NCBI GenBank assembly: GCA_902580505.1
Contig: CACHLB010000011.1
Coordinates: 1 to 33,172, forward strand
Origin: an uncultured Pelagibacteraceae bacterium
GTDB taxonomy: Bacteria; Pseudomonadota; Alphaproteobacteria; Pelagibacterales; Pelagibacteraceae
Reading direction: 5' to 3'
DNA length: 33,172 nucleotides
Of the stretch, positions 13,615-29,909 are shown in pieces. How positions within the stretch are numbered: the first letter of the stretch is position 1; each line of letters starts with the position of its first letter. The notes beneath the pieces were generated by a model. It was not told where the DNA came from, searched no databases, and saw only the letters and a list, made by a program, of their open reading frames with translations. Both the position numbers and the translations under genes were made by a program.

Positions 13615-13663
13615 AAAATAATATTTACTATCTTTTAAATTTTTAACAATTATAAAATTCTAT

Positions 13664-14398: not shown

Positions 14399-14420
14399 AA
14401 ATTATTTTTTAATAATTTTT
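14397..14420. terminator. Putative bidirectional terminator, 10-bp A/T stem
   Basis: AAAAATTATT (14397-14406), a TTTT loop and AATAATTTTT (14411-14420) form a perfect 10-bp stem. It includes the stop of the GT2 gene (14396-14398) and of the convergent isomerase (14402-14404). The arms end in A5/T5, so either strand yields a hairpin followed by U residues. The stem has no G/C pair, so its strength is doubtful. Confidence 0.4.
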
Positions 14421-14959
14421 TGACTAATCATATGCATTAACGATTGAAATATATCTTCACAAATTCCATAATTTTTACAATTTAAATTTAAATTTATATC
14501 AGTTAATGTAGAAATAAATTTGCTAGCAAATCCTGTAAAACTAATAGTGAAAATTCCCTTTTTTTTTGCATACTTTATTACATCAATTATATTTTTTGAA
14601 TTACCAGAACAACTAAAAGTCACTAATAAGTCATTTTTTTTAAAATAATTTTCTAATTGATATGAAAAAATTTTATTATAATTAACATCATTCGAGATTG
14701 CTGTAATAATTTCGATATTTGATGAAAGCGAAATTACTTTTGGTTTAAGAGTATTTTTTGAATGAGTTTTTAAACCTTTATTAAAATCACATAAAAAATG
14801 ATTTGCAATTGAGGCTGCTCCACCATTTCCGCATGTAAAAATTGTATTTTTTTTTTTAATTTTACTTATTAAAACTTTTTCTATTAATAAAATTTTTTTT
14901 GTATCAATTGCATTATAAACTTCAATATGATCATATATATATTTACTATACTTATTCAT
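14402..14959 (-). CDS. gmhA: SIS-domain sugar isomerase, GmhA-like (sedoheptulose-7-phosphate isomerase)
   Basis: This 185-aa single SIS domain has FTCGNGGAASIANHFLCD (41-58), a phosphosugar-binding SCSGNSKN (116-123) and a C-terminal ED-x6-H stretch (Glu168, His176). These match GmhA, which converts sedoheptulose 7-phosphate to D-glycero-D-manno-heptose 7-phosphate. Length fits (about 190 aa). The heptose assignment is supported by a HAD phosphatase two genes away and by the nucleotidyltransferase/kinase fusion at 19308-20789. It is the last gene of a three-gene minus-strand unit. A different ketose phosphate could be the substrate. Confidence 0.8.
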   Translation of the reverse strand: MNKYSKYIYDHIEVYNAIDTKKILLIEKVLISKIKKKNTIFTCGNGGAASIANHFLCDFNKGLKTHSKNTLKPKVISLSSNIEIITAISNDVNYNKIFSYQLENYFKKNDLLVTFSCSGNSKNIIDVIKYAKKKGIFTISFTGFASKFISTLTDINLNLNCKNYGICEDIFQSLMHMISQKIIKK

Positions 14960-14967
14960 AGATTTAA

Positions 14968-16074: not shown

Positions 16075-16097
16075 TATTAAATTTTAATTTAAAAATG

Positions 16098-16460
16098 TTA
16101 GATATTGAATTTTTTTTCTAAATTTTTACTCCAATTTTTATTAAAATTATGATTTTTATCATCTATAAACAAATCGTACTCCGGTTTACCCATAATTAGT
16201 TGATGATATTTAAGTTTACATTTTTCATTCAAAAATATTTTTGTTTCATTTAATTTTTTATTAACCTTAGTTTTATTTTCTTTAAATCTACCCATATACC
16301 TAGCTGTGAAAATCTTAATATAAAAATTCTTGTCATACAATTTATTTATAATATTTATATTTTTTTTAATCGGGATAGAATTCTTGTAATTACTTTTTTT
16401 AGTTTTACAAATAACGCCATCAACGTCAAAACAAAGAATTTTTTTGTAATTTTTTTTCAT
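16098..16460 (-). CDS. Small HAD-superfamily phosphatase
   Basis: This 120-aa protein has HAD motif I FDVDG (Asp12, Asp14), motif II in IFTARYMGR (Thr51) and motif III/IV in GKPEYDLFIDDK (Lys91, Asp99/Asp100), so all catalytic positions are present in a minimal, capless fold. The ATG at 16460 begins just before the first strand. A longer frame from 16595 exists but would run into the divergent ABC gene and add an unrelated tail. From its place beside a GmhA-like isomerase it may remove the C7 phosphate of a heptose bisphosphate, as GmhB does, although it is shorter than GmhB and lacks its zinc-binding cysteines. Confidence 0.75.
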   Translation of the reverse strand: MKKNYKKILCFDVDGVICKTKKSNYKNSIPIKKNINIINKLYDKNFYIKIFTARYMGRFKENKTKVNKKLNETKIFLNEKCKLKYHQLIMGKPEYDLFIDDKNHNFNKNWSKNLEKKFNI

Positions 16461-16531
16461 ATAATATAAATTGATGATTATTATAATTTTATAATATATA
16501 ACACAATAAAATAGCTTAATTCCATGTTTAT

Positions 16532-18145
16532 ATGAAAAATATTTTAGACATCGCTGGAAACAAAATAAAAATTTTATTAATTTTATCAGTACCAATAGGA
16601 TTGGCTTGTGGTCTAATAGAAATAGTATTTGCTATTTCATTAAATGATGTACTAATTAAATACAGTTTAATCGAAGGACAGAAAAAAATAGATTTTATTG
16701 ATCCTTTGTATGCAATTTTGATATTTGGATTTGTAAGGTTTGTTTTATTCTTCTTTTCTCAAATAATATCAAACTTAATATTTGAATTTTTAAATCAAAA
16801 AATTAGAAACCTTGTAATTATAAATAATTACAATTTTTCTAACACTATTGGACTAGTTAAGTCACAATTACTTCTTAATAATGTAACAAACAAAATAGCT
16901 GAATTTTTAAATTCTGGCTCACAACTTTTGATTCAAAGTATAATATTTTTAACCCTATATTTTTTTCTATTTAAACAATCGATACAACTCACATTTTTAT
17001 CCTCAATAATTTTTGTAGTTTTATTTGCTCCATTGTTGATAATGAAAAAAAAAATTTCATTATATTCACTTGAATTTCGAGATAAAGTTAACTTTGTTTT
17101 ATCAAAAATTTTTAAAGATATAAGAAATATAAATTTTTTGAAAACTGTTGGATCATTAAATAACGAGAGAGAAATAGTATTAAATACAAATGAGCAGTCT
17201 ATTAAACCATTTATAAGATATAATTTAAACCTTGGATTTGTTAATCAATTACCAAATTTTTTTGGAATATTAGTTATTGTTTTCATTATTATTCTAAATT
17301 CAAAATACTCTTTTATTGAAATTGGAAATATGGTTCCTTTTCTTTATCTTATTTTGCGTTCAATAATGGTCTTTGGTCATATCACATACAATATTGGTCG
17401 AATAATTTTTGGACAACCTTATGTGAAAATGCTGCTAAATAATTTTATAGATTCAAAAATGCAAATAGAAAATCAGCAAGAAGACCTTTATTCTAATAAA
17501 AAAATAGTAAAAAATTACAAACTTGAGGTAAATTCTTTATCAATAGGATATGATAAGGTAATTGTTAAAGACCTAAATTTTAATATTGAGAAAGGTAATT
17601 TTTGTCTTATTACTGGTGAATCTGGTGTTGGTAAAACAGCATTATTAGCCACAATAGTTGGTATAATAAAACCTCATAGTGGAAATATATTTTGGGGCAA
17701 TATAAATATTGAAGATCTAAATTTAGACGAATTTAGAAAGACAATTTCGTACTGTTCTACAGACCCATATTTAATTGAGGGTACTATAAGAGAAAACATT
17801 CTTTATGGTAACAATATGTCTCTGAATAATTCAATAATAGAAGAATGCTTGTCTCTTTGTGAGTGTGACTTTTTAAAAAAAGATCAAAAATATGATTTGG
17901 AAGCTAAAATAAAAGATGATGGAAGTGGTCTTTCATCAGGACAAAAACAAAGGCTATCGTTGGCTAGAGCTATTTTAAATTCACCAAAAGTGATCATTCT
18001 AGATGAAGCCACAGTGAATATTGATGAGAATATAGAGGAAAAAATTATTTTAAACATAAAGAAAACTTTACCAGATAGTTTAATCTTGGCTATTTCTCAT
18101 AGAAACAGTTTAAGGAAATACGCTGATAAGATAATAAGCATGTAA
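16532..18145 (+). CDS. ABC exporter, fused permease and ATPase (MsbA/PglK-like)
   Basis: This 537-aa half-transporter has about six membrane segments (roughly 12-37, 60-84, 132-148, 152-171, 243-257, 264-285) followed by an ATPase domain. Visible are Walker A TGESGVGKT (361-369), signature LSSGQ (467-471), Walker B VIILDEAT (487-494) and H-loop SHR (about 525-527). PglK and similar enzymes flip lipid-linked oligosaccharides, the likely role here since no Wzx flippase is visible. The Q-loop glutamine is replaced: YCSTDPYL has Thr410 where YxxQDxxL is usual. The D-loop reads ATVNID instead of ATSALD but keeps its Asp. The protein stops soon after the H-loop, shorter than the usual 570-600 aa. 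It is a single-gene unit, 71 nt divergent from the HAD gene. Confidence 0.88.
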   Translation: MKNILDIAGNKIKILLILSVPIGLACGLIEIVFAISLNDVLIKYSLIEGQKKIDFIDPLYAILIFGFVRFVLFFFSQIISNLIFEFLNQKIRNLVIINNYNFSNTIGLVKSQLLLNNVTNKIAEFLNSGSQLLIQSIIFLTLYFFLFKQSIQLTFLSSIIFVVLFAPLLIMKKKISLYSLEFRDKVNFVLSKIFKDIRNINFLKTVGSLNNEREIVLNTNEQSIKPFIRYNLNLGFVNQLPNFFGILVIVFIIILNSKYSFIEIGNMVPFLYLILRSIMVFGHITYNIGRIIFGQPYVKMLLNNFIDSKMQIENQQEDLYSNKKIVKNYKLEVNSLSIGYDKVIVKDLNFNIEKGNFCLITGESGVGKTALLATIVGIIKPHSGNIFWGNINIEDLNLDEFRKTISYCSTDPYLIEGTIRENILYGNNMSLNNSIIEECLSLCECDFLKKDQKYDLEAKIKDDGSGLSSGQKQRLSLARAILNSPKVIILDEATVNIDENIEEKIILNIKKTLPDSLILAISHRNSLRKYADKIISM

Positions 18146-18151
18146 TTTATC

Positions 18152-19285
18152 TCAATTAATATTTTTTTTTACTAAATTTAAAAATTGAATTGATGTATTA
18201 GGTTCAGCTTTTAAGCCTAAGCTTGATATATTATATTTCCAAAAAATATTTTTTTTCATTTTAGATTTGATTAATTTACCTTTTTTATCAATTACGTCCT
18301 TATACAATATCTTATTAAACGGTGGTTTAAAACCGATAGGAAAATAATTGATTCCAAAAGATTTTTTTGAATATAGTCCAAAAAATTGTGCTCCTCCTGG
18401 TTCAGAAATAAATATATTATTTTCTGTTAAAGCATAAATTTGAAATATATCTTTTTGCATTTGGGCTATACGATAATCAATCACTTTTTTCTTAAATTTT
18501 TTAATTTCATTAAAATTGAAGATTGTGTCACCTACTAAAAAAATTGTAAATTTTTTTTTTATCAAGTACTCAAACATTTTTTTATAGGCATCTTTAGGTG
18601 AGCCATTTCTAATATTGTTAGACTCATCTGAATTAGTTGAGTATTTTTTTCTTAAATAAACAGAACAAATTTTATTTATTTTTATATTTTTAATTTTTAA
18701 TTTATTTTGAATTTTTTTGAGATTTTCAGAATTTAGTTTTGGATTTTGAAGCTGTTTACTGATTACCTTATAAAAGTATATATCTACATACTTTTTAAAT
18801 ATTTTGAAATCTTTCCTATTAAAGTTAATTTTTTTTATAATTTCTTTGTTTTCTTTTTCAAAAATTTTATAAAAACTTTCTAATTCAAGTACATTTTTAG
18901 ACAGTATATATTTTAAAATTAATTTTATTATATAAAAATTTAAAGAATTTAAAGATCCTTCATACTCTCCAATTCTAAAATTATAACTAAGTTTTTTACC
19001 ATAACATGTTGGTAAATATATATGATTTATATTAAAAACTTTACTTACATATTTGTTATATCTTGTAGGATCAAATAACAAAATATATAAATATTTCTTT
19101 TTTGAATATCTAATTATATCGTTAGCAAAAATTTGATTTCCAAAACCACCTGTTCTGTGTATTAATATGTTTTTATAGTTTGCGATTTCTGATAAATTTT
19201 TTGGTAATAATAAATATAATAAATTTGTAATTAAAAAAATTAAACTTATTGGCAAATTTATTAATTCTTTTAAAAGTATTTTCAC
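18152..19285 (-). CDS. Putative glycosyltransferase (resembles TIGR04372-type)
   Basis: This 377-aa protein begins with a hydrophobic stretch (about 8-30) that may be a membrane anchor. It continues with ILIHRTGGFGNQIFANDI (about 40-57), a GNQ-containing motif like that of GT11 and related GT-B enzymes. The C-terminal half has CSVYLRKKY with NGSPKDAYKKMFEYL, FTIFLVGD, and ALTENNIFISEPGGAQFFGLYSKK. These recall the TIGR04372 group of O-antigen-cluster glycosyltransferases, but I could not run a search. It is the last gene of the minus-strand unit from the SDR at 24579 downward, 22 nt after the nucleotidyltransferase/kinase gene. Donor and acceptor unknown. Confidence 0.6.
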   Translation of the reverse strand: MKILLKELINLPISLIFLITNLLYLLLPKNLSEIANYKNILIHRTGGFGNQIFANDIIRYSKKKYLYILLFDPTRYNKYVSKVFNINHIYLPTCYGKKLSYNFRIGEYEGSLNSLNFYIIKLILKYILSKNVLELESFYKIFEKENKEIIKKINFNRKDFKIFKKYVDIYFYKVISKQLQNPKLNSENLKKIQNKLKIKNIKINKICSVYLRKKYSTNSDESNNIRNGSPKDAYKKMFEYLIKKKFTIFLVGDTIFNFNEIKKFKKKVIDYRIAQMQKDIFQIYALTENNIFISEPGGAQFFGLYSKKSFGINYFPIGFKPPFNKILYKDVIDKKGKLIKSKMKKNIFWKYNISSLGLKAEPNTSIQFLNLVKKNIN

Positions 19286-19307
19286 TATAAGTTTTTTGTT
19301 TAAATTT

Positions 19308-20789
19308 TTAGATTGTTAGAAATCTTTTTATAGTTCTTAAAAATTCATTTTTAGTTATTACTGTTTCATTACCTATGCATTGAGAGTGCATTCCTGCATA
19401 AATATTTCCTAGAAATGGGATAATAAGAGATGGGAAATTTTTCATAATCATTAATGAGGTAATCATAAAATATGCATCTCCGCATCCCGTAGTATCAACT
19501 GTTTTATTATAATAAACCGGAAACTCAAAGGACTTTCCATTTTTGATGAAAACACTACCCTTTTTTCCTTTAGTTAAACTTTTTAATTTAAAAGTTTTAT
19601 TGGATTTAATATCATTTAAGATTTCTTGACTTTGATTTTTAAATGCTAATCTCCATTCTCTTTCATCTAGGGATACATAAAAAGCATTGTTATACTTACT
19701 GACGATATTGTATCCCTGATTTAATGAATTTGTTTGAACATTCAAATAAATATTCTTATTTTTGTTTATTTTTTTCAAAACAATATCCTCAAATAATCCA
19801 ACTCCAAAATCACAAATGATTAGATTTTTGTTTATAAGATTTTGATTTAACTTTTTATTGATATTTTTTTGATCCTTTAAATCAAAAATATTTTTTCTAA
19901 AATTGGTTACTTGCAATATTTTTTCTAATCTATTTAAGTTTAAATATCTTGTCTTAATTTGAATATTGGATTTTGGAGACAAATTAATCAATTTGGCTTT
20001 GTTTTTTGATTTATTTAAAAAACTTTTTAATGTTTTGTTTTTTCCAAAAGTATAAAAATTTATTTTTTTTACAAATTGAGATGCTAACATACATACAGAA
20101 AGTGCTCCACCTTGGATAATTTTTTTATTGTTTTGGATTGTAGAAAAACACGGGTCCTTTGATGCCAGTCCAGCTATATCACAAAAGACATATTCATCTA
20201 AAATAGTTTCTCCTACAAGATTTAATTCTAAATCTTCTAAAGAATTAATTTTTTCTTCTATAAATTCATAGCCATAATTTTTATTTATTTTTCTTATAGA
20301 CTCTTTTTGTTGTTTATTAAATTCTGAAAATAAATTATTAAATATTTTTGTTGAGCTCATTAATTCAGTTGGAGTAATTAATAATTTACCTCCATATTTG
20401 ATAACTTCTCTTTTTTCCTTTTCAAAATTTAATGTTAAATCTTTTTTAAGAAAATCTTTCCCCTTAAAGTAAAAGTTAGGTTTTAATTTTTTTAAATAAT
20501 TCAATGATGTTAAATGATCATTTATAAATATGTAGTCAATATATTTCATAGCAGCTAAAGTCTTGGCTCTTTTGATCTCATCATTATATGGTCTACCTTC
20601 ACCTTTGTTTACAAATTTATCTGAAGTTATTGATACAATTAAAATATCAGACTTACTCTTTGCAAATTCAAAATGATTAATATGTCCAGCATGAATAATG
20701 TCAAACACCCCATGACAAATACCTATTTTAATTTTTGGATTTTTATTTCTTAATTTCTCCAAAAAATTGATATTTTTTATTAAAGCCAT
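19308..20789 (-). CDS. Bifunctional nucleotidyltransferase-PfkB kinase, inverted HldE order
   Basis: This 493-aa fusion has an N-terminal cytidylyltransferase-like domain (about 1-150). It carries GICHGVFDIIHAGHINHF (23-40, with the HxGH motif at 33-36) and GRPYNDEIKRA (65-75), like HldE/RfaE2. The C-terminal PfkB sugar-kinase domain (about 177-493) has LVGETILDEYVF, a GGALSV segment and the catalytic DTTGCGDAY near residue 435. Standard HldE has the kinase first and the nucleotidyltransferase last; here the order is reversed. The likely role is phosphorylation at C1 of heptose 7-phosphate and nucleotide activation of heptose 1-phosphate, together with the GmhA-like and HAD proteins. It overlaps the UGM-like gene by 10 nt. 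Which nucleotide is used is not readable by eye. Confidence 0.85.
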   Translation of the reverse strand: MALIKNINFLEKLRNKNPKIKIGICHGVFDIIHAGHINHFEFAKSKSDILIVSITSDKFVNKGEGRPYNDEIKRAKTLAAMKYIDYIFINDHLTSLNYLKKLKPNFYFKGKDFLKKDLTLNFEKEKREVIKYGGKLLITPTELMSSTKIFNNLFSEFNKQQKESIRKINKNYGYEFIEEKINSLEDLELNLVGETILDEYVFCDIAGLASKDPCFSTIQNNKKIIQGGALSVCMLASQFVKKINFYTFGKNKTLKSFLNKSKNKAKLINLSPKSNIQIKTRYLNLNRLEKILQVTNFRKNIFDLKDQKNINKKLNQNLINKNLIICDFGVGLFEDIVLKKINKNKNIYLNVQTNSLNQGYNIVSKYNNAFYVSLDEREWRLAFKNQSQEILNDIKSNKTFKLKSLTKGKKGSVFIKNGKSFEFPVYYNKTVDTTGCGDAYFMITSLMIMKNFPSLIIPFLGNIYAGMHSQCIGNETVITKNEFLRTIKRFLTI

Positions 20790-21946
20790 TTTTTTATTGG
20801 GAACGCACCTTCAAAAAAGTTATTATTTATTTCATCTTTTAGTTTTAACGCTTGCTCAATGCAATCATCAATATCTACTTCATATCTATAAGTACCAGCT
20901 CTTCCAATAGAGTAAAACCACTTAGGAAATTTAGATATATATTTTTTCGACTTTTCTATTTCTTTTTTTATTGGTAAGGGATAGTGTTTTCCTTTATGCG
21001 AAGGTATTTCCATGCCTATTAAGGTGGTATTAGATTTATGTTTTGTAAATTTTTTGTATTCAACTAAACGAGTAAATTTCTCCTTATTTGCATAATAGAG
21101 AAAGTAAACATTTTTTGGAAATATTTCTTTTGATGGAAAAACAATTTTATGAAAATCTCTACCTATAAATTTTAGTTCACCATAAATTTTATTTTTAAAA
21201 TAAGTGTCTGGTGAGATTGTTGATATGACTATATCAAATTTTTTTTTAACTTTATTAATCTCAAAAATTTTGTTTTTTAAAGATATTAATTTAAAATTTG
21301 TATTAAATAATATCTTAAGATTTCTTTTTTTTGGCAGATCAAAAAAATCATTGTAACCATTTAATTTTTTGGGATAACAAGATATGGCTTTATCCCATGC
21401 AGCCCTAGGACCACTTTTAAGAGTTGCACCTTTTGGTGACCAATTAAAAGTATCTATTTTTTTTGTACTATCTACAAACCACATTTTTTTATTATAGGTG
21501 TTGATTGTCTTATTATAAAGTGTCTTACCAATTGAGTTTATCCAAAAATCTTCCATATTTTTAGAATTTTTAATTTTTAATAAAGATCTTTTCTTTAATT
21601 CTTTTTTAATTTTTTTTTTATCTGGCATTTTTTTTAAATCAGTTACGTGCAAAGGATAATGATAGAATTGATTATCAGTTTCAACATATGTTAAAAATTC
21701 ATGATCAGAGCATTTTCTTAAAGGAACAATTTTATTTAAATACTGATATATTTTTTTGTTGTGTGTCAAAAAATGTCTTGGTCCAAAAGTATACGGGTGA
21801 CCACCATAAAAAAAAGTTCTTACACCAGCACCTAAAAATTTACCTTTTTCAACTAAAGAAATATCCAGATTTTTATTTTTTGATAATTCCCGCGCTGCAG
21901 TTACACCAGCAAATCCACCCCCAATTATTAAAATTTTTTTTTTCAG
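20780..21946 (-). CDS. glf: UDP-galactopyranose mutase-like flavoprotein, non-ATG start
   Basis: The frame encodes about 388 aa. The N terminus reads KKKILIIGGGFAG (FAD-binding GxGxxG) and SLVEKGKFLGAGVRTFF, then HPYTFGPRHFLTHNKKIYQYL and FYHYPLHVTDL, as in UGM. The C-terminal GRAGTYRYEVDIDDCIEQAL matches the conserved UGM Arg/Tyr region. UGM interconverts UDP-galactopyranose and furanose using reduced FAD. No ATG precedes the FAD motif; the best start in the sequence as given is CTG at 21946-21944, overlapping the transketolase stop as CTGA. A later TTG at 21769 would remove the FAD site. It overlaps the bifunctional kinase gene by 10 nt, so a pyranose-furanose switch on an activated heptose or other sugar is also possible. 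Symbol by family only. Confidence 0.78.
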   Translation of the reverse strand: MKKKILIIGGGFAGVTAARELSKNKNLDISLVEKGKFLGAGVRTFFYGGHPYTFGPRHFLTHNKKIYQYLNKIVPLRKCSDHEFLTYVETDNQFYHYPLHVTDLKKMPDKKKIKKELKKRSLLKIKNSKNMEDFWINSIGKTLYNKTINTYNKKMWFVDSTKKIDTFNWSPKGATLKSGPRAAWDKAISCYPKKLNGYNDFFDLPKKRNLKILFNTNFKLISLKNKIFEINKVKKKFDIVISTISPDTYFKNKIYGELKFIGRDFHKIVFPSKEIFPKNVYFLYYANKEKFTRLVEYKKFTKHKSNTTLIGMEIPSHKGKHYPLPIKKEIEKSKKYISKFPKWFYSIGRAGTYRYEVDIDDCIEQALKLKDEINNNFFEGAFPIKKWL

Positions 21947-22848
21947 ACAACCTCTTTTAATATTTTTTCTACTGTTATGCCATGCTTTTTCTCCAGGAGT
22001 TCTTTTTGAGATCCATAAAAATGGAAAAATTTATCTTTTAGAGAAAAATTTTTTATTTTATTTTGGATACCATTATCATGTGCAAATTCTTTGCATATAG
22101 ATGAAAGGCCTCCAATTTCAGAGTGATCCTCAAGAATTATGATTTTCTTATATTTTTTTAATATACTTTTCAGCGATTTATAGTCAAAAGGCTTTAAAGT
22201 ATGCGCTGAATAAATAGCTATGTTTGATTTCTTTTTTACTTCTATCGCAGTTTTTATTATTGGACCGTATGTAAGTATACAAGTTTTATTTTTTCCATCA
22301 CATATTTTACGAATTTTTCCAAACTTCCATTTTGTGCTTTCTTTAAATATATAATCTTTCTCTCCAGATTTGCCAATACGAAGATAACATGGATTTTTTG
22401 AATATTTAGACAAATATTTTATACAAGATTTGATTTCATATAAATCACTTGGAGCTAAAACTGTCATATTAGGAATAGATCTAGCTATTGATATATCTTC
22501 TTGTGTCAGGTGTGTACCACCTAATGTAGAATATATTGTGCCCGCACCCATTCCAACAATAGTTACAGGTAAATTTTGATAACAAATATCATCTCGGATC
22601 ATTTCAAATGGCCTATAAAGAGCGAATGTGGCTATTGTATAAGCAAATGGTTTCATGCCACGCATAGCTAAGCCAGCTGAAATACCAATCATAGATTGTT
22701 CTGCAACTCCAGTATTAACAAATCTATCAGGATATTTTTTTCTCAGCTTTTCCATGCTTCCAGCAGGAGAAATATCAGCAGCAACTACATAAATTTTTTC
22801 ATTTTTAATAGCTTCTTTGTACAATGTTTCAGCAAAAACGTTTCTCAT
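21943..22848 (-). CDS. Split transketolase, C-terminal subunit (pyrimidine-binding and C domains)
   Basis: This 301-aa protein covers the second half of transketolase. The pyrimidine-binding domain has VVAADISPAGSM and RFVNTGVAEQSMIGISAGLA, with the catalytic Glu in VAEQ that activates ThDP. TIATFALYRPFEMIRDDICY and GGTHLTQEDI follow, then a transketolase C domain with CILTYGPI and LEDHSEIGGLSS. It works with the N-terminal subunit encoded just upstream, whose stop overlaps its ATG by one base (TAATG). Such split pairs occur in sugar clusters. The activity is transfer of a two-carbon ketol unit; donor and acceptor are not known here. Confidence 0.88.
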   Translation of the reverse strand: MRNVFAETLYKEAIKNEKIYVVAADISPAGSMEKLRKKYPDRFVNTGVAEQSMIGISAGLAMRGMKPFAYTIATFALYRPFEMIRDDICYQNLPVTIVGMGAGTIYSTLGGTHLTQEDISIARSIPNMTVLAPSDLYEIKSCIKYLSKYSKNPCYLRIGKSGEKDYIFKESTKWKFGKIRKICDGKNKTCILTYGPIIKTAIEVKKKSNIAIYSAHTLKPFDYKSLKSILKKYKKIIILEDHSEIGGLSSICKEFAHDNGIQNKIKNFSLKDKFFHFYGSQKELLEKKHGITVEKILKEVV

Positions 22849-23651
22849 TAAATCTCAGTACTATCTAACTCTTTTAAAGCTTTTAAGTATTCTTCTTTAT
22901 TTGGGGATTTATAGTGCCATATGGGTTTATTTGACATATATGAAATTGGATAACCTTTAATTGTTTTACATATTATGGCCAGTGGTTTATTTTTCTTTTT
23001 TCTCTTGAATGCTTTAAATATTTCTCTTTGATTATGTCCATCACAAACATAAGATTGCCACCCAAACGACTTTAATTTATCTTCAATAGGATAAATATAC
23101 GGATGTGATTTTGAGGTTCTTTCAAGACTTTGTAAATCATTATTATCTATAAATGTTACTAAGTTATTTACATTTAAAGATGGAGCTATCATAATCGCTT
23201 CCCATGTTGATCCCTCTTGAAGTTCTCCATCACTTAAGACCGAATAAATTATTCTTTTTGATTTGCCTCCTCTTTCAGCCAAAGCCATTCCAACAGACAT
23301 TGATAAACCATGACCCAAAGAGCCTGTTGACGCATTTATTCCTGGATTCCCTCTATCAGGGTGTACTCCTAAAAAACCATTTGGTTTACAGTAATTTTCT
23401 ACATCTTTTTTTTTTAAAACTCCTAAGTCCTCCAATATTACATAGTGAAGTATAGATCCATGACCTTTTGACATCACAAAACAATCCAAATTTTTCTTAT
23501 TCAAAAATACATTAAAAATTAAATCCATTATTTCTGTGCAAGAAAATGTTCCACCCAGATGTAAGGCGCTAACTTTTTGAGATAGTTCTAAGATTCTCTT
23601 TCTGTACTTTATTGATCTTTTTTTTGATTTAATTAGTTCTTGTAATTTCAT
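22848..23651 (-). CDS. Split transketolase, N-terminal subunit (ThDP diphosphate-binding domain)
   Basis: This 267-aa protein has the ThDP pyrophosphate-binding domain. SALHLGGTFSCTEIMDLIF is at the N terminus, followed by FVMSKGHGSILHY, GINASTGSLGHGLSMSVGMA and the metal/ThDP motif SDGELQEG...DNND, where SDG replaces the common GDG. It forms the active site at the interface with the C-terminal subunit downstream. The two genes together equal about 570 aa, shorter than a housekeeping transketolase of about 650 aa, as is normal for split forms. It follows the SDR with a one-base gap. Its place in a polysaccharide cluster suggests either supply of sedoheptulose 7-phosphate to the GmhA-like enzyme or attachment of a two-carbon branch to a keto sugar. 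Confidence 0.88.
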   Translation of the reverse strand: MKLQELIKSKKRSIKYRKRILELSQKVSALHLGGTFSCTEIMDLIFNVFLNKKNLDCFVMSKGHGSILHYVILEDLGVLKKKDVENYCKPNGFLGVHPDRGNPGINASTGSLGHGLSMSVGMALAERGGKSKRIIYSVLSDGELQEGSTWEAIMIAPSLNVNNLVTFIDNNDLQSLERTSKSHPYIYPIEDKLKSFGWQSYVCDGHNQREIFKAFKRKKKNKPLAIICKTIKGYPISYMSNKPIWHYKSPNKEEYLKALKELDSTEI

Positions 23652-23652
23652 G

Positions 23653-24579
23653 TTAAACTTTTTTATTTGCCTTTAACCAAGCCAAATTCCAATTATTTTT
23701 TGTTGGTTTAAAACCTTTTTCAAAATTATATTTAATATCTTTTATAGCATCTATTGAATTAAATTTTGGTTGGAATCCAGCTTTTAAAATTTTTTCTGAA
23801 GAAATTCTGTATGATCTTGGGTCATTGGTTTTTATGTAAGTAATTTTGCAATTTATTTGCCTTGAGACTTCTTTGGCAATATTCGAAATTGACTTATTTT
23901 CGAAACCTAAATTAAAAACACCAACTATATTTTTTTTAATAAAAAATTCATAACATCTTATCATATCATCTATGTGTACTAAGGGCCTAATTTGTGATCC
24001 TCCAGTAATTGATATTTTTTTCTTGTAATAAGCCTGATAACAAAACAAATTTAGTACAACGTCTAATCTTAGTCTATCTGAAAATCCACAAACCGTAGCT
24101 GGTCTAATAATTGTATATTTAATTTTATCGGAATAAGACTGAATTACTTTTTCACATATCATCTTAGATTTATTATAATCTGTTATTGGATCTAAACCTA
24201 AACCTTCATGAACTTTTTTTTCTTTTTTAAGTCCATAAATACTTCCAGATGAAGCAAATAGAAATTTTTTAATTTTTTTTTTTACACAGTAATCCAAAAT
24301 CTTATATACAGCTAGAGGACCACTTTCCCATGTATGTCGCGCATCAAGTTCACATAAAGGGTCATTTGACAAATACGCAAGATCTATAACTGCATCGAAT
24401 TTGGATAACTTATTAAAGTTGTAATAGCGAATGTCTGCTTTTATTTTTTGTACTTTTTTATGTAAAAAATCCCCAAACCAAAAATTATCTAAACAAGTAA
24501 TTTTATAATTCTTGCTTACAAGATAATTGCATAGTTTTGTACCTATGTAACCAGCACCGCCTATTATTAAAATTTTCAT
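23653..24579 (-). CDS. NAD-dependent epimerase/dehydratase (extended SDR), first gene of the split-transketolase operon
   Basis: This 308-aa protein starts MKILIIGGAGYIGTKL at the ATG 24579-24577. An open frame reaches back to 24672 but would add 31 unrelated residues and overlap the divergent gene's start, so 24579 is chosen. DNFWFGDFL, KADIRYYN, DLAYLSNDP, FASSGSIYG, Tyr-Asn-Lys-Ser-Lys (YxxxK) and RPATVCGFSDRLR follow, typical of sugar SDRs. The C-terminal region has DPRSYRISSEKI with a WNLAWLK ending. I have seen similar ends in SDRs of uncertain role in O-antigen clusters. Likely role: reduction or epimerisation of the sugar on which the transketolase acts. It is separated from the divergent SDR by 59 nt. 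Confidence 0.8.
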   Translation of the reverse strand: MKILIIGGAGYIGTKLCNYLVSKNYKITCLDNFWFGDFLHKKVQKIKADIRYYNFNKLSKFDAVIDLAYLSNDPLCELDARHTWESGPLAVYKILDYCVKKKIKKFLFASSGSIYGLKKEKKVHEGLGLDPITDYNKSKMICEKVIQSYSDKIKYTIIRPATVCGFSDRLRLDVVLNLFCYQAYYKKKISITGGSQIRPLVHIDDMIRCYEFFIKKNIVGVFNLGFENKSISNIAKEVSRQINCKITYIKTNDPRSYRISSEKILKAGFQPKFNSIDAIKDIKYNFEKGFKPTKNNWNLAWLKANKKV

Positions 24580-24595
24580 TAGATCTATGGAATAT

Positions 24596-24625
24596 TTGAC
24601 AATCTTATATATTAAATTATTTAAT
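24596..24625 (+). promoter_or_regulatory. Putative sigma70-type promoter for the 24639-27630 operon
   Basis: TTGACA (24596-24601), an exact -35 consensus, is followed after 18 nt by TTTAAT (24620-24625, five of six to TATAAT). Transcription would begin around 24632, leaving a leader of only a few bases. It lies in the 59-nt divergent gap. The A/T background makes -10 matches common, but TTGACA with two G/C bases is less likely by chance. Confidence 0.45.
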
Positions 24626-24638
24626 TTTAAATTTAAAT

Positions 24639-25499
24639 ATGAGAAAAATTTTAATAACTGGCGCTGGAACACTAATTGGTGGTGAGATTGTTAAGTTTCT
24701 TGCTAAAAAAGGTTTTCTAATCATTGGAATATACAATAAATCAGTCCCTAAATTAAAGCACAAAAAAGTAACTTTTATAAAAAAAAATCTTGCAAAAAAA
24801 TTAAATTTAAAAACTAAATTTGATTACTTAATACATTGCGCTTCAAAAATTCCTTCTGATGGTAATACCAAGAAAGTGATGAGTGCAAATATCACTATGT
24901 TAAAAAATTTATTAAACATAGATCATAAAAAAGATTTAAAAAAAATTATTTTTTTATCAACAATGTCAGTTTACGGACAAATCACAAATAAAATAATCAA
25001 TGAAAAAACGTTACCAAAGAATTTAGATCCTTACGGCAAATCTAAATTGGATTGTGAGAAATATATAAAAAATAAATTATATAAAAAAATATCATATACT
25101 ATACTCAGATTACCAGGTGTTGTTGGGAAAAAAAGCAAACATAACTTTATGTCTAATTTATTAAAAAATATAAAGGAAAATAAAAAAGTTAAAATTACAA
25201 ATGCCAATTCGTATTTTAATAATATTGTGCATGTTGAAACTATTTCAAATTTAATACTGCATTCAATAAATTACGATAAAACTAATAATATTTACAATGT
25301 TTCGAGCTCAAAACCCGTTAAACTAAAAGATTGTGTGAAAATTTTATTTAGACTATTTAGAAAAAAGGTTAATTTAGAGGAAATTAGAAGTAATAATAGA
25401 AGTTTTATGATAAGCACAAAGAAAATAAAAAAAAGATATTATCCAATTATATCAACAAAACAAAGTCTAAAAAAATTTTATGAAAGCAACAAGAAATAA
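24639..25499 (+). CDS. NAD-dependent epimerase/dehydratase (extended SDR)
   Basis: This 286-aa SDR opens MRKILITGAGTLIGGEIV with the nucleotide-binding GxxGxxG. It has HCASKIP near residue 67, FLSTMSVYG (about 106-114) and an intact DPYGKSKLDCEKY with the YxxxK pair. RLPGVVG and NIYNVSSSKPVKL follow. It is shorter than hexose epimerases (about 310-350 aa) and resembles 4-keto reductases of the WcaG/RmlD-like type. It is the first gene of a coupled plus-strand operon and overlaps the oxygenase by 20 nt. It is not closely similar to the divergent SDR. A reductase finishing a branched or oxidised sugar is a guess. Confidence 0.78.
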   Translation: MRKILITGAGTLIGGEIVKFLAKKGFLIIGIYNKSVPKLKHKKVTFIKKNLAKKLNLKTKFDYLIHCASKIPSDGNTKKVMSANITMLKNLLNIDHKKDLKKIIFLSTMSVYGQITNKIINEKTLPKNLDPYGKSKLDCEKYIKNKLYKKISYTILRLPGVVGKKSKHNFMSNLLKNIKENKKVKITNANSYFNNIVHVETISNLILHSINYDKTNNIYNVSSSKPVKLKDCVKILFRLFRKKVNLEEIRSNNRSFMISTKKIKKRYYPIISTKQSLKKFYESNKK

Positions 25500-26280
25500 A
25501 GATAAATATCTCCAGTTAGAAAAGAAATTTTTAAAAAATGGTTACGTCAAATTTAAAGCAAATAAAATTTTATTAAACAGTTTAGTAAAACAAATTAAAG
25601 GATATATAGTTAAATATACAAAAATAAAAAATCCAAACTTAAAAAATTTTCATAATCAGTTACAGGTTTCTAAATTAAATTCTCTAAGGATAAAAATTTA
25701 CGATGAATTAAATAAAAGTAAGAATTTTCAAGAAAATTTGCATTTTATAGGAGAAAAATCTATTGAACAAATGGTGGGAAGTGAATTTGTAAGAGGAAAC
25801 TTAAACTTATCAATCCAATATCCTGGTGATAAAAATTCTCTTCTTTCTGCTCATACTGACTTTTTTAGCGGTGAGTCTATTTTTCAAATAAATCTTTGGA
25901 TACCATTTGTTGATGTAAAAAAAACAAGTTCAATGTTTATCATTAATCCAATAAAATCTATAAAATTACTAAAAAAAATTAAATATTCCTCTAAATTTAC
26001 AATGGATAAAATTTTTAAAGAAGCAAAAAAAGATATTCGATGGATACCTTTAAAATTTGGCGAATATATTATTTTTAGTCCAAACTGTCTTCATGGAAAT
26101 GTAACTAATCAAGAAAAAATTTCAAGATGGTCTATAAATGTGCGATATAAGAACTTATTCAGCCCATACTCCAAAATCAGAGAGAACGAAAAAAAAATAG
26201 GAACTTTTTATAACAAAATTAACCCAAAAATTGTTACAAAATTTAATATGTTTTATGAATTTGATGAGTTAATAAAATGA
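25480..26280 (+). CDS. 2OG-Fe(II) dioxygenase, phytanoyl-CoA dioxygenase-like (sporadic carbohydrate cluster type)
   Basis: This 266-aa protein has the iron triad of 2-oxoglutarate oxygenases: His125 and Asp127 in SAHTDFFSGES, and His205 in PNCLHGN. An Arg (216 or 222 in the SRWSINVR segment) probably holds 2-oxoglutarate. QINLWIPFVD and GEYIIFS match the jelly-roll strands. Family members hydroxylate or desaturate small molecules. An oxygenase next to an LIC12192-like protein is the pairing I recall under the NCBIfam/TIGRFAM name sporadic carbohydrate cluster. It overlaps the SDR by 20 nt and the next gene by four (ATGA). No other start is available near the N terminus. The substrate is presumably a nucleotide- or lipid-linked sugar. 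Confidence 0.78.
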   Translation: MKATRNKDKYLQLEKKFLKNGYVKFKANKILLNSLVKQIKGYIVKYTKIKNPNLKNFHNQLQVSKLNSLRIKIYDELNKSKNFQENLHFIGEKSIEQMVGSEFVRGNLNLSIQYPGDKNSLLSAHTDFFSGESIFQINLWIPFVDVKKTSSMFIINPIKSIKLLKKIKYSSKFTMDKIFKEAKKDIRWIPLKFGEYIIFSPNCLHGNVTNQEKISRWSINVRYKNLFSPYSKIRENEKKIGTFYNKINPKIVTKFNMFYEFDELIK

Positions 26281-26657
26281 AAAAGGTATTAAAGCCATAT
26301 GTACTTAACAAAAAATTTGGAGAATATTACTTACCTGTTAGATTTCAAAATAAGCTTATGAAGTTATATTGTGAAGAAAAATCTCTTACATATAGTTTGC
26401 CCACTGGTGAAATAGTTTTTGGAAATAATTATATACAACTAAAAACACTTATAAAAAATTTAAAGAAAGGAGAAGGTCTGTTATTCATGTCCCTAAGTGT
26501 TCTACCTTCGGAAAATAAATTAAGATCAATATTTATAAATTTATTGAAAAAAAAAAAAATTGAATGTCACTTTGTTTTCGAAAATCTAGTAATAAAAAAA
26601 GAAAGAGAGTATTTGAAAATAAATCAATTTTTTAAATTAATAAAATTTACAAAATGA
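26277..26657 (+). CDS. Sporadic carbohydrate cluster protein, LIC12192-like, function unknown
   Basis: This 126-aa protein carries FGEYYLPVRFQNKLMKLYCEE near the N terminus, then LTYSLPTGEIVFGNNYIQL, GEGLLFMSLSVLPSENKLR and a final IECHFVFENL. The pattern fits the small LIC12192 family as I remember it (a PVRxQN / YC / YxLPxxE pattern followed by a short alpha/beta fold). It has no signal peptide or membrane segment. No biochemical role is known to me. It is coupled by ATGA overlaps to the 2OG oxygenase upstream and to a 22-codon micro-ORF downstream. It could be an accessory subunit of the oxygenase or of the following glycosyltransferase. Confidence 0.65.
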   Translation: MKKVLKPYVLNKKFGEYYLPVRFQNKLMKLYCEEKSLTYSLPTGEIVFGNNYIQLKTLIKNLKKGEGLLFMSLSVLPSENKLRSIFINLLKKKKIECHFVFENLVIKKEREYLKINQFFKLIKFTK

Positions 26658-26722
26658 ATGAAAACAACATTTTCTGGAAACTTTATCCGCAATCGAAGAG
26701 AGAAAATATATCTCAAATATGA
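26654..26722 (+). CDS. Candidate 22-aa micro-ORF coupled on both sides by ATGA overlaps
   Basis: The ATG at 26654-26656 overlaps the TGA of the LIC12192-like gene (26655-26657). Its own TGA at 26720-26722 overlaps the ATG of the glycosyltransferase (26719-26721). The peptide starts MNENNIFWKL and ends RENISQI; it has one Trp and several charged residues, and is not hydrophobic. It fills exactly the space between two genes that would otherwise be 61 nt apart. It may be a translated linker that carries ribosomes to the glycosyltransferase, a real micropeptide, or the remnant of a lost gene. Nothing in it is recognisable. Confidence 0.45.
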   Translation: MNENNIFWKLYPQSKRENISQI

Positions 26723-27630
26723 AAAAAATATCAATTTGCATACCAGTTTTTAATGAAGAGGAAAATATTCTAAATAGTTTTAATAAAATAAAAGATGTAT
26801 TTGATAAAAAGTTACCAAATTACAATTATGAATTTATTTTTACTGACAATAATAGCACAGATAGAACTGAAGAAATTTTGACTGATTTATGCGAGCAATA
26901 TCAAAATGTTAGGTACATAAGATTTAGAAAAAACTTAGAATATGATAAATCTATACTTGAAGGATATATACATTCAAGCGGAGATGCTGCTTTAGTAATT
27001 GACAGCGACTTGCAGGATCCTCCCGAATTAATTGAAAAATTTGTAATTGAGTGGGAAAATGGAAGTGATTTGGTTTACGGAGAGGTAAAATCTAGAGATG
27101 AAAATTATTTCATTAATTATTTTAGAAAGATATATTATAAGCTCATTAATTCAACTTCACTTTATAATTATCCAGAGAATGCGCATGATTTTAGATTAAT
27201 CGATAAATCAATTAGAGATAAATTAAAAGATATTAATTATATTTTTCCTTATGTTAGAGGAATTACATTTAATTTATCAAAAAAACCAATAGGAATCAGT
27301 TACGATAGGCATAAAAGATCAAAAGGAAAAAGCAAATTTGGATTTTACAATAATTTTACTTATTCACTTAATGCATTTTTTGAAGAGACATTCATGTTTA
27401 CAAAAATTTTTAGGAGGATAACACTCTTATTAACAACTATTATTTTAATCTTCTCAATTATCAATATAATTAGCAAATTTAAGTATCTAACTTTTTTCGA
27501 TAATTTAATTCTAGCATTAATTACTTTTTTAATTATCTTTGTCACTATAATAACTGAGTATCTAACAAGAATATATTTACAATTAAAAAAGATAGATACC
27601 AATATATATGAGAAAAAAATTAATTTTTAG
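26719..27630 (+). CDS. Polyprenyl-phosphate glycosyltransferase, GT2, GtrB/DPM1-like with two membrane segments
   Basis: This 303-aa protein has a GT-A domain starting KISICIPVFNEEENI, with DNNSTDRTEE (about 43-52) and the metal-binding DSDLQDPPELI (about 94-104). YDRHKRSKGKSKFGF follows, and then two hydrophobic segments (about 232-252 and 258-280). This is the layout of GtrB/ArnC-type enzymes, which move a sugar from a nucleotide to undecaprenyl phosphate at the inner membrane. It ends the plus-strand operon and overlaps the convergent methyltransferase by 11 nt at the 3' end. The sugar it loads is likely the product of the surrounding unusual enzymes. No GtrA flippase or large periplasmic transferase gene is seen next to it. 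Confidence 0.85.
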   Translation: MKKISICIPVFNEEENILNSFNKIKDVFDKKLPNYNYEFIFTDNNSTDRTEEILTDLCEQYQNVRYIRFRKNLEYDKSILEGYIHSSGDAALVIDSDLQDPPELIEKFVIEWENGSDLVYGEVKSRDENYFINYFRKIYYKLINSTSLYNYPENAHDFRLIDKSIRDKLKDINYIFPYVRGITFNLSKKPIGISYDRHKRSKGKSKFGFYNNFTYSLNAFFEETFMFTKIFRRITLLLTTIILIFSIINIISKFKYLTFFDNLILALITFLIIFVTIITEYLTRIYLQLKKIDTNIYEKKINF

Positions 27631-28164: not shown

Positions 28165-29223
28165 TTAATTATTAAAAAAGAAATTGTTAATTTGTTTTTT
28201 AATAATTCTATTACTTTGATTTTTATACATGTTTTCGTTGTACCATTCAGCCGTCAATCTCAAAATTTGCGTTAAATCATATCTGTTGTTCCAATATAAA
28301 TATTTTCGTGCCTTAGATGAATCTAGGTTTAGAAATTTACTCTCTTTTTGATTTGTTTTTTTATTTATAAAAACAATATTTTTTGCCTTATGCTCAATGA
28401 ATTTAGAGAAAATTTTTATTAATTTTTTTACAGTTACATTTTTTTTATAATTTGGTCCAAAATTCCAATTACCTGAATATTTTTCTCTGTTTTTATATAA
28501 CTTCATTGCTAAGATTAAATAACCATTAATTACATCTAGTACATGTTGCCAGGGACGTGATGAATTTGGATTTCTGATAATAAATTTTTTTGAATACTTT
28601 ATACTTTTAATATAATCAGGTAAAATTCTATCAACTGACCAATCTCCTCCTCCGAGAACATTACCTGCTCTAACCGAAGCAGCACCAATTTTTTTATTAA
28701 TTAGATAACTTTTTAAAAATGAGTTAAATAAAATCTCTGAAGCACCTTTTGAGGCACTATAGGGATCATCGCCACCAAGAGCATCTGTCTCAATAAAAAA
28801 TTTTTTCTTATTTAAATTTTGGTAACATTTATCTGAAGTTACAATGATTAACGATTTTAAATTTTTTAGTTTTAGTGAAACAGATAGTAAATTTAAAGTT
28901 CCATTAAAGTTTGTTTCAAAGGTATTTTCTGGAAATTTATATGACTTTCTAACAATAGATTGTGCAGCTAGGTGAAAAATAATATCAGGCTCTATTTTTT
29001 TTATTGTTATACTAAGCCTTTTTTTATTCAAAATATCAAAAAAGTAACTTTTTATATTTTTAGGCTCACACAATTTGTAGAAATTTTTTTTATTTTCATC
29101 ATTTTTAGATATGCCGTAAACTTTAGCTCCTAAAATAGTTAAACAATTAATAAGCCAAATTCCCTTAAAACCAGTATGTCCAGTAATTAAAATTTTTTTA
29201 TTTTTATAAAAATTTTTTAGCAT
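28165..29223 (-). CDS. rfbG: CDP-glucose 4,6-dehydratase
   Basis: This 352-aa SDR shows ITGHTGFKGIWL (13-24), HLAAQSIVRKSY (84-95) and TSDKCYQN (129-136), the RfbG form of the catalytic loop. Tyr155-x3-Lys159 is in DPYSASKGASE, and RAGNVLGGGDWSVDRILPD is diagnostic for this family. It makes CDP-4-keto-6-deoxy-D-glucose from CDP-glucose. Its ATG overlaps the TAA of rfbF by one base. No RfbH-type 3-dehydratase or AscE/RfbS reductase is present, so the keto sugar must go to another route. Confidence 0.95.
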   Translation of the reverse strand: MLKNFYKNKKILITGHTGFKGIWLINCLTILGAKVYGISKNDENKKNFYKLCEPKNIKSYFFDILNKKRLSITIKKIEPDIIFHLAAQSIVRKSYKFPENTFETNFNGTLNLLSVSLKLKNLKSLIIVTSDKCYQNLNKKKFFIETDALGGDDPYSASKGASEILFNSFLKSYLINKKIGAASVRAGNVLGGGDWSVDRILPDYIKSIKYSKKFIIRNPNSSRPWQHVLDVINGYLILAMKLYKNREKYSGNWNFGPNYKKNVTVKKLIKIFSKFIEHKAKNIVFINKKTNQKESKFLNLDSSKARKYLYWNNRYDLTQILRLTAEWYNENMYKNQSNRIIKKQINNFFFNN

Positions 29224-29909
29224 TAAAACTTTCGCTTTTTTACTAAATCAATTAATATTTTTTTATCTCTTTGTGTATCCATACACTGCCAAAGTCCTTC
29301 ATGTCTAAAAGCTACTAATTGTTTTTTTTTTACTAATCTTTCTAAAGGCTTTTTTTCAAATACTTCATTCTTTTTTATATATGAGAAAATATTTTTGTTA
29401 AAAATAAAAAAGCCACCATTTATCCATCCATTATTAACTCTGGGTTTCTCTTGAAATTTTGATACTAATTTATTTTTATTAATTGTAACTTCGCCAAATC
29501 TTGCTGGCGGTCTTACGACAGTTAATGTGCCAATTTTTTTTTTCGAAATATGAAATTTAATTAATTCTTTCAAATTTTGGTCGGATAGACCATCACCGTA
29601 AGTTACAAAAAAAATTTCATCTTTTTTTATATATTTTCTTAATTTTAAAAGTCTTCCTCCTGTATTAGTATATAAACCCGTAAATACACATTTTACTTCT
29701 ATATTTTTTTTTTTCTTGAAATAATTTTCTATTATTTTTGATTTATATCCAGTTGCTAAGATAAAATTTTTAATTCCAAATTTTCTAAATAAATTAATTA
29801 TTCTCTCTAAAATAGGAATTCCTTGAATTTTCACCATAGGCTTAGGAATTTTTTTTGTTTCAATCCCTAATCTAGTTCCTAGACCTCCACAGAATATTAT
29901 TGCTTTCAT
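29223..29909 (-). CDS. rfbF: Glucose-1-phosphate cytidylyltransferase
   Basis: This 228-aa nucleotidyltransferase begins MKAIIFCGGLGTRLGIETK with the GG-x-GTRL signature, then IPKPMVKIQGIPIL. It has FILATGYKS, a VTYGDGLSD metal site and VRPPARFGEV, typical of RfbF. It makes CDP-glucose from CTP and glucose 1-phosphate. It is somewhat shorter than the usual 257 aa. A RmlA-like or mannose-1-phosphate role is less likely because rfbG follows directly. It abuts the aminotransferase gene with no spacer. Confidence 0.92.
   Translation of the reverse strand: MKAIIFCGGLGTRLGIETKKIPKPMVKIQGIPILERIINLFRKFGIKNFILATGYKSKIIENYFKKKKNIEVKCVFTGLYTNTGGRLLKLRKYIKKDEIFFVTYGDGLSDQNLKELIKFHISKKKIGTLTVVRPPARFGEVTINKNKLVSKFQEKPRVNNGWINGGFFIFNKNIFSYIKKNEVFEKKPLERLVKKKQLVAFRHEGLWQCMDTQRDKKILIDLVKKRKF

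Follow-up and report, generated by a model that had tools for sequence, protein, structure and literature searches.

A split transketolase, a 2-oxoglutarate oxygenase and a LIC12192-family protein in a candidate rare-sugar pathway of an uncultured Pelagibacteraceae bacterium

Two mechanisms have been described for two-carbon branches, one with the pyruvate-dehydrogenase-like proteins AviB1/AviB2 and the nonheme-iron protein AviO2, the other with the flavoprotein YerE (PMC4425429). An E1-like pair has been proposed for eurekanate (PMC10338323), C-4 branched octoses occur in O-antigens (PMC4753412), and a lincosamide gene table includes a transaldolase, an isomerase, a phosphatase and a nucleotidyltransferase (PMC12945683). 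How does a locus built around a split transketolase compare with such systems? The locus in question lies on a 33,172-nucleotide contig stretch from an uncultured Pelagibacteraceae bacterium (the window, meaning the whole stretch) and also encodes an Fe(II)/2-oxoglutarate (2OG) oxygenase of family TIGR04324 and a LIC12192-family protein, TIGR04323. Among a set of open-access papers none was found on LIC12192, on the TIGR04323/TIGR04324 'sporadic carbohydrate cluster' (SpoChoClust) or on split transketolase, and the Leptospira paper PMC13111663 has no mention of LIC1219, LIC1218, oxygenase or nucleotidyl. As judged from sequence comparison, a real and conserved sugar pathway stands behind the locus, and its product is probably a rare surface sugar. 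The locus is read here as one form of a widespread route to a rare surface sugar that is nucleotide-activated, whereby a nucleoside diphosphate (NDP)-heptose-type sugar would receive a two-carbon unit from a thiamine diphosphate (ThDP) enzyme and then be tailored; the probability assigned to this reading is roughly 0.45.

The genes form two back-to-back runs whose divergent starts are 59 bases apart, and same-strand neighbours overlap or lie at most 22 bases apart. The minus-strand run consists of a short-chain dehydrogenase/reductase gene (SDR1), tktN, tktC, a UDP-galactopyranose-mutase-like (UGM-like) gene, a nucleotidyltransferase-kinase (NT-kinase) gene and a glycosyltransferase gene; the plus-strand run consists of SDR2, the oxygenase gene, the LIC12192 gene, a 22-codon open reading frame (ORF) and a GtrB-like transferase gene. 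A preliminary description of this DNA had proposed two such operons, and every gene is present, with family scores above cut-offs for the oxygenase, LIC12192 and the transketolase domains. The genes on which the argument turns are as follows.

23653..24579, minus strand: SDR1, an extended short-chain dehydrogenase/epimerase and recurrent partner (Pfam Epimerase 115 bits; operon SDR1 profile 240 bits)
22848..23651, minus strand: tktN, the ThDP-binding half of the split transketolase (Transketolase_N 102 bits, cut-off 22)
21943..22848, minus strand: tktC, the pyrimidine-binding and C-terminal half, with changed acceptor residues (Transket_pyr 105 bits, cut-off 27; Transketolase_C 50 bits, cut-off 26)
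19308..20789, minus strand: NT-kinase, an HldE-like nucleotidyltransferase followed by a PfkB kinase (rfaE_dom_II 95 bits at 16-150; rfaE_dom_I 59 bits at 182-479; operon profile 334 bits)
24639..25499, plus strand: SDR2, RmlD/epimerase-like, recurring in window-type clusters (Pfam Epimerase 87 bits; homologues in loci L178 and L199)
25480..26280, plus strand: Fe(II)/2OG oxygenase, TIGR04324 (267 bits, cut-off 150)
26277..26657, plus strand: LIC12192-family protein, TIGR04323 (101 bits, cut-off 55)

Among the 398 genomes of a phylum set, TIGR04324 exceeds its cut-off in 7 and TIGR04323 exceeds its own in the same 7; at E 0.001, 12 further genomes have weaker TIGR04324 matches, without TIGR04323 in any of them. 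In 6/6 of the other carriers, five of which are of one genus, tktC, tktN, SDR1 and NT-kinase lie with the oxygenase and LIC12192. A scan of the same genomes with PF00456 gave some match at E 1e-20 in 382/398 and was unusable as a split-transketolase background; a gmd control was used instead.

Within the window's order, TIGR04324 is matched at E 1e-30 in 22 of 297 genomes including the window's own, always over cut-off, and 22 regions were read from the 21 others. Near the oxygenase, 13 of these 21 genomes have the transketolase (tkt) pair, 7 an E1alpha/E1beta-like pair (PF00676, and PF02779 with PF02780, for L182), 2 both and 18 either. The genomes with neither are those of L186, L194 and L195; the L194 and L195 regions begin at a contig start near the oxygenase, and L195 to L198 have an oxygenase of a remoter subfamily, which scores 85 to 103 bits against the queries. 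The control comprises 20 gmd regions of the same order, each the strongest gmd of its genome, with known oxygenase carriers left out and four regions shorter than 14 kb. It has no tkt pair, oxygenase or LIC12192 and one E1 pair, i.e. a ThDP pair in 1/20 versus 18/21. One-sided Fisher tests give p = 1e-7 (either pair) and 1e-5 (tkt pair), both optimistic because the genomes are related. The control has a limit: a tkt pair is found close to gmd in the window itself and in G443 (L187), and G437 (L049) has one some 7 kb from a second gmd that scores below cut-off. The preliminary description had named the absence of co-occurrence between the transketolase pair, the oxygenase and LIC12192 as grounds for refutation; these counts show the three occurring together.

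Loci on named contigs extend the picture. The scan used 80 of 177 confirmed loci, consisting of 43 from Bradyrhizobium/Bradyrhizobiaceae, treated as one lineage, and 37 others. The main count rests on the 25 of those 37 with at least 8 kb on both sides, the 12 with less than 8 kb on a side being left out; presence cut-offs were set by eye. In the Bradyrhizobium group tktN, tktC, an APH kinase and LIC12192 are present in 43/43 loci, and NT-kinase, SDR1, the phosphatase HAD205, a GAE-like SDR, DegT and a methyltransferase each in 42/43. The 25 well-flanked loci have LIC12192 (25), methyltransferase (25), NT-kinase (21), tktN (20), tktC (20), HAD205 (17), APH (17), SDR1 (15), GmhA (12) and GAE-like SDR (12); over all 37 the counts are tktN 25, tktC 28, LIC12192 37 and methyltransferase 37. 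Missing genes in GC-rich loci may be missed calls, as overlapping false ORFs occur there. A common order is GAE-like SDR, NT-kinase, GmhA, SDR1, HAD205, APH kinase, tktN, tktC, sometimes DegT, oxygenase, LIC12192, methyltransferase. Carriers outside the Bradyrhizobium group include Azospirillum, other Rhodospirillales, marine alphaproteobacterial metagenome-assembled genomes (MAGs) and a planctomycete MAG; titles of MAG records, Chitinophaga and Mesoflavibacter for example, may be in error. Named carriers of the tkt pair include Azospirillum lipoferum Sp59b (L106) and Bradyrhizobium species.

What kind of transketolase is this? Both halves have their best PDB sequence match in the Carboxydothermus split transketolase (6yaj, 6yak), and tktN is nearest its N-terminal component. 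In E. coli TktA numbering, TktN keeps H26, H66, H100, H261, D155, E160 and N185 and TktC keeps E411, and the window's TktC has Gly for H461 and Leu for D469. We take H461 and D469 to be the acceptor residues of E. coli TktA and the kept residues just named to be on the donor side or to serve ThDP. In a first alignment, from which row L052_56 was set aside as it holds no split TktC, H461 is replaced by Gly and D469 by Leu in the window and in 33 other split TktC rows, except that L123 has Ala at D469. A second alignment gives Gly or Ala at H461 and Leu, Ala (L123) or His (L189) at D469; R358 is missing only from L189 (Met) and a cut L133 row, most rows have Lys or Arg at R520, and the S385 position varies with the alignment. 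With those presumed roles of the kept and changed residues, the donor chemistry appears to be retained and the acceptor would be other than the usual hydroxyaldehyde phosphate. A FastTree of 24 TktC sequences groups the window with L110, L199, L187, L178 and L192 (support 0.99). Some tktC ORFs have about half the usual length and stop after the pyrimidine-binding part, namely those of L184, L185 and L191 (163 amino acids) and L048 (4270-4752, 160 amino acids); the partner tktN looks intact in the first three.

Because H461 and D469 are lost while donor-side residues are kept, the split pair is probably not just a housekeeping enzyme. Could it nevertheless simply be the housekeeping transketolase of a streamlined genome, placed in a polysaccharide locus? 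No full-length transketolase was found in the window's assembly (86.5% complete), and none is shown in 10/24 same-genus assemblies; the other 14/24 do have the full-length gene, and most of these assemblies are incomplete. Moreover, split pairs adjoin the oxygenase in genomes that possess other transketolases, e.g. the five of the Bradyrhizobium group, each with 3 to 5 Transketolase_N matches. With the acceptor residues changed as well, a mere housekeeping role is highly improbable. Such a role had been set in advance as a refutation; the pair looks specialised by its residues and, with no full-length gene found in the assembly, may have a double role in this genome.

Which pathway would account for the observed families, their co-occurrence and order, the residue pattern and the E1-like pair that replaces or joins the tkt pair in relatives? 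In the scheme proposed here a GmhA-like isomerase, the NT-kinase and a HAD phosphatase would produce an NDP-heptose-type sugar, which the SDRs would epimerise or oxidise to a keto sugar. The split transketolase would transfer a ketol unit of two carbons, taken from an ordinary ketose, to this non-standard acceptor, and the Fe(II)/2OG oxygenase and LIC12192, in most relatives with the methyltransferase, would tailor the product. The acceptor, the order of steps, the final structure and the membership of the window's separate GmhA-like and HAD genes are proposals. The heptose-type sugar is suggested by the recurrent NT-kinase, GmhA-like isomerase and HAD phosphatase, and two-carbon transfer to a sugar is the favoured role of the ThDP enzyme since the clusters of relatives include E1-like pairs, which in L182, L189 and L198 come to within 3 bases of the oxygenase. 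The preliminary description had envisaged transfer to a keto sugar or synthesis of an unusual ketose phosphate. Transfer fits, in that the E1-like pair of 7/21 relatives belongs to the class proposed for avilamycin and paulomycin branches (PMC4425429, PMC4753412). Its specific acceptor, CDP-4-keto-6-deoxyglucose, finds little support, as a CDP-glucose 4,6-dehydratase homologue reaches the cut-off in 1/25 non-Bradyrhizobium and 0/43 Bradyrhizobium loci. Bradyrhizose was dropped as a candidate product because no photosynthetic Bradyrhizobium was recognised among the loci, a weak argument with 80 of 177 loci kept.

The same genes could be arranged differently. The split transketolase might make an unusual ketose phosphate (C7 or C8), which the GmhA-like isomerase, PfkB domain, HAD phosphatase and nucleotidyltransferase domain would convert to an NDP-heptose or NDP-octose, much as ADP-heptose and the lincosamide octose are made, with the SDRs and oxygenase tailoring it. 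This is a credible minority explanation. NT-kinase (21/25) and GmhA (12/25) are frequent partners, HAD205 and APH are found only with tkt and are fused beside tktN-tktC in L182, R358 is nearly always kept with mostly Lys or Arg at position 520, and the lincosamide table has a comparable gene set (PMC12945683). The loss of H461 and D469 argues the other way, NT-kinase and GmhA track tkt only loosely (phi 0.33 and 0.28), and five genomes of the order have an E1-type pair instead of tkt, an enzyme from which no ketose phosphate for GmhA would be expected. Transfer to a nucleotide-activated keto sugar is preferred since NT-kinase occurs without tkt in L097, L111 and L118 and near E1-type pairs in L182, L189, L196 and L198.

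Gene spacing bears on whether one sugar is involved or two. The oxygenase, LIC12192 and methyltransferase, together in 25/25 loci, might constitute a tailoring module by themselves, while tkt, HAD and APH, which vary largely as a unit, serve a different sugar of the same polysaccharide. Single ORFs that join LIC12192 to the methyltransferase (4/22 regions) and HAD to APH (1) accord with such modules, as does tktC lying more than 4 kb from the oxygenase in L182 and L189. Against this, tktC is within 70 bases of the oxygenase in 16/25 loci, upstream and co-directed in the gene orders inspected, and 18/21 genomes of the order have a ThDP pair near the oxygenase; a purely modular neighbourhood is quite improbable.

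Several findings nonetheless weigh against the two-carbon transfer pathway. Neither ThDP pair is found in 5/25 loci. HAD205 and APH, each in 17/20 tkt-bearing and 0/5 tkt-less loci, suggest sugar-phosphate chemistry, and L182 and L189 hold both pairs, which are therefore not simply interchangeable. The change at H461 and D469 is also seen in the split TktC of L047, L048 and L049, loci without the oxygenase, and so marks a wider group of polysaccharide-cluster enzymes. TktC has only 163 amino acids in L184, L185 and L191. Finally, the operon profiles found no homologue of HAD205, the APH kinase or the methyltransferase in the window.

The oxygenase has invariant H125, D127, H205 and R216 in a 55-row alignment, where HxD...H presumably forms the iron triad and the Arg binds 2OG. 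Its AlphaFold2 (AF2) model (pLDDT 91.3) has a PhyH-like 2OG-oxygenase fold, and its many near-tied matches include sugar-tailoring enzymes. In the fold search PtlH, GriE, EvdMO1, SnoN, AviO1, EvdO2, HygX and others fall within about 2 Z units, and ranking among such near ties carries no meaning.

The LIC12192 protein has 126 residues and no second domain, and a 40-row alignment shows invariant Y8, Q24, N25, L41, E45, G67, P77, R83 and E102. For its AF2 model (pLDDT 84.2, pTM 0.80), 28 of the first 29 fold matches are named recombinase, resolvase, invertase or integrase (Z 11.6 to 7.2), the remaining one being 3lhk, a 'putative DNA binding protein'; the next match, unrelated, has Z 6.8. Foldseek gives a best E of 1.5e-3 and nothing under 1e-3, PF00239 is absent from the Pfam matches of the 40 members, and a sequence-only profile comparison with resolvases, based on 18 of 30 stretches (12 dropped for stops or length), gives no support (0.8%). 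There is no invariant Ser near residue 10, the nucleophile position in a register judged by eye, where the window has Asn. The protein is accordingly predicted by its model, as a new assignment, to have the serine-recombinase catalytic-domain fold with a set of conserved polar residues but without the conserved nucleophile, and its role would be that of an enzyme or binding protein, not recombination. Short ORFs unmatched by the LIC12192 query directly follow distant TIGR04324-type oxygenases in L187 (6938-7372), L195 (2152-2538) and L196 (10351-10743); their position and a QPxQ-like motif make them possible remote members of the LIC12192 group. Might the two novelties belong together? In what would be a new kind of two-carbon branching, a rebuilt-pocket split transketolase could move a hydroxyacetyl unit onto a nucleotide-activated keto-heptose to give an undescribed branched C9 sugar, which a recombinase-fold LIC12192 would modify beside the 2OG oxygenase; in so specific a form the proposal is unlikely.

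The remaining genes of the two runs, and two candidate pathway members outside the reported span, are these.

20780..21946, minus strand: UGM-like flavoprotein with a probable CTG start (PF03275 95 bits)
18152..19285, minus strand: glycosyltransferase, distantly TIGR04372-like (33 bits, under the cut-off of 45)
26654..26722, plus strand: 22-codon ORF that overlaps both neighbours, LIC12192 and the GtrB-like gene
26719..27630, plus strand: GtrB/ArnC-like glycosyltransferase 2 (PF00535 104 bits; PgfS 139 bits, below cut-off)
14402..14959, minus strand: GmhA-like SIS isomerase, candidate member (TIGR00441 102 bits, cut-off 209; operon GmhA profile 90 bits)
16098..16595, minus strand: HAD phosphatase-like protein, candidate member (TIGR01689 35 bits, cut-off 162; homologues in L185, L187 and L198)

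Equivalog cut-offs of the ADP-heptose pathway are not reached in the window by the GmhA-like protein (102/209 bits), the NT-kinase (101/521 bits for HldE) or the HAD protein (35/162 bits for EcbF), and the three appear to represent families similar to the ADP-heptose enzymes, not the equivalogs. The UGM-like frame has no ATG, GTG or TTG before 21769; its start is most likely the CTG at 21946-21944, which overlaps the tktC stop and lies behind AAAGAGG. Homologues occur near the oxygenase in L126, L179, L188 and L199. The stretch YPQSKRENISQ of the 22-codon ORF aligns with the N-terminus of the L198 methyltransferase, and 6/1000 shuffles score as high, with the caveat that one unrelated ORF among 403 scores one point higher; the ORF may be what is left of a methyltransferase gene, which in other loci often comes after LIC12192. 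Neither glycosyltransferase of the preliminary description holds up as a partner. The GtrB-like one, thought to load the sugar on a lipid, has a homologue in 1/22 regions of the window's order and no ORF in the named-contig loci, and the one at 18152-19285 has no homologue in either set. Farther downstream, at 28165-31040, genes labelled by eye as a CDP-glucose 4,6-dehydratase, a sugar nucleotidyltransferase and a DegT aminotransferase are present; of the three, DegT recurs with oxygenase loci, chiefly in Bradyrhizobium.

The nearest ARRANGEMENTS is L199, of the same genus, which has SDR1, tktN, tktC, the UGM-like gene and NT-kinase in the window's order with SDR2 divergent. Its oxygenase is interrupted by a run of N, and an apparent 1874-amino-acid oxygenase 'fusion' there was discarded as an artefact of that run. 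L178/L179, of the same family and another genus, have the oxygenase-LIC12192-SDR2 set, the tkt pair and the UGM-like gene. Genuine single-ORF fusions were sought among ORFs already labelled in the 22 regions: the LIC12192-methyltransferase fusion, presented here as new, is found in L178, L185, L188 and L192. A number of loci encode radical SAM proteins close to the oxygenase operon, e.g. L182 (5844-6920) and L119 (11175-12239). Six loci scored for a glycosyltransferase-41 homologue and four for the SBBP-repeat protein; in L104 an SBBP-repeat protein and a TPR-glycosyltransferase-41 protein flank the operon at both ends (260-2962, 13405-16347). Two ORFs of L107 look flagellin-like by eye. The operon's sugar may decorate proteins in some hosts.

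A recurrent gene set, with named carriers, is now defined for two NCBIfam families of the product-less 'sporadic carbohydrate cluster', and the role of split transketolases in polysaccharide loci becomes testable. The recombinase-like fold in a sugar operon, if true, gives TIGR04323 a structural assignment and residues to test. A serine recombinase catalytic domain resembles LIC12192 in predicted fold; LIC12192 differs in having no sequence match, no conserved nucleophile, 126 residues alone and a sugar-operon context.

How, then, does the locus stand beside described systems? The window's proteins pass both cut-offs of TIGR04323 and TIGR04324, whose clusters are sporadic and carbohydrate-related, but these families name no product or partners, whereas NT-kinase, SDR1, the ThDP pair and the methyltransferase emerge here as partners. 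AviB1/AviB2 with AviO2 of avilamycin, and Pau11/Pau12 of paulomycin, resemble the locus in that a ThDP enzyme of two parts serves a sugar pathway together with an oxygenase of the nonheme iron kind (PMC4425429); the window's pair differs in being transketolase-like, not pyruvate-dehydrogenase-like, and the sugar and host differ. YerE of yersiniose likewise stands for a ThDP-dependent two-carbon branch of an O-antigen sugar (PMC4753412), but is a single flavoprotein. The ADP-heptose (HldE, GmhA) and lincosamide octose pathways have the set of isomerase, kinase, phosphatase and nucleotidyltransferase (PMC12945683); the window departs from them in the reversed NT-kinase domain order, with the nucleotidyltransferase first, and in the added ThDP pair, oxygenase and LIC12192. 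The Carboxydothermus split transketolase has the same two-chain division, and in alignment retains the equivalents of H461 and D469 that the cluster enzymes have replaced.

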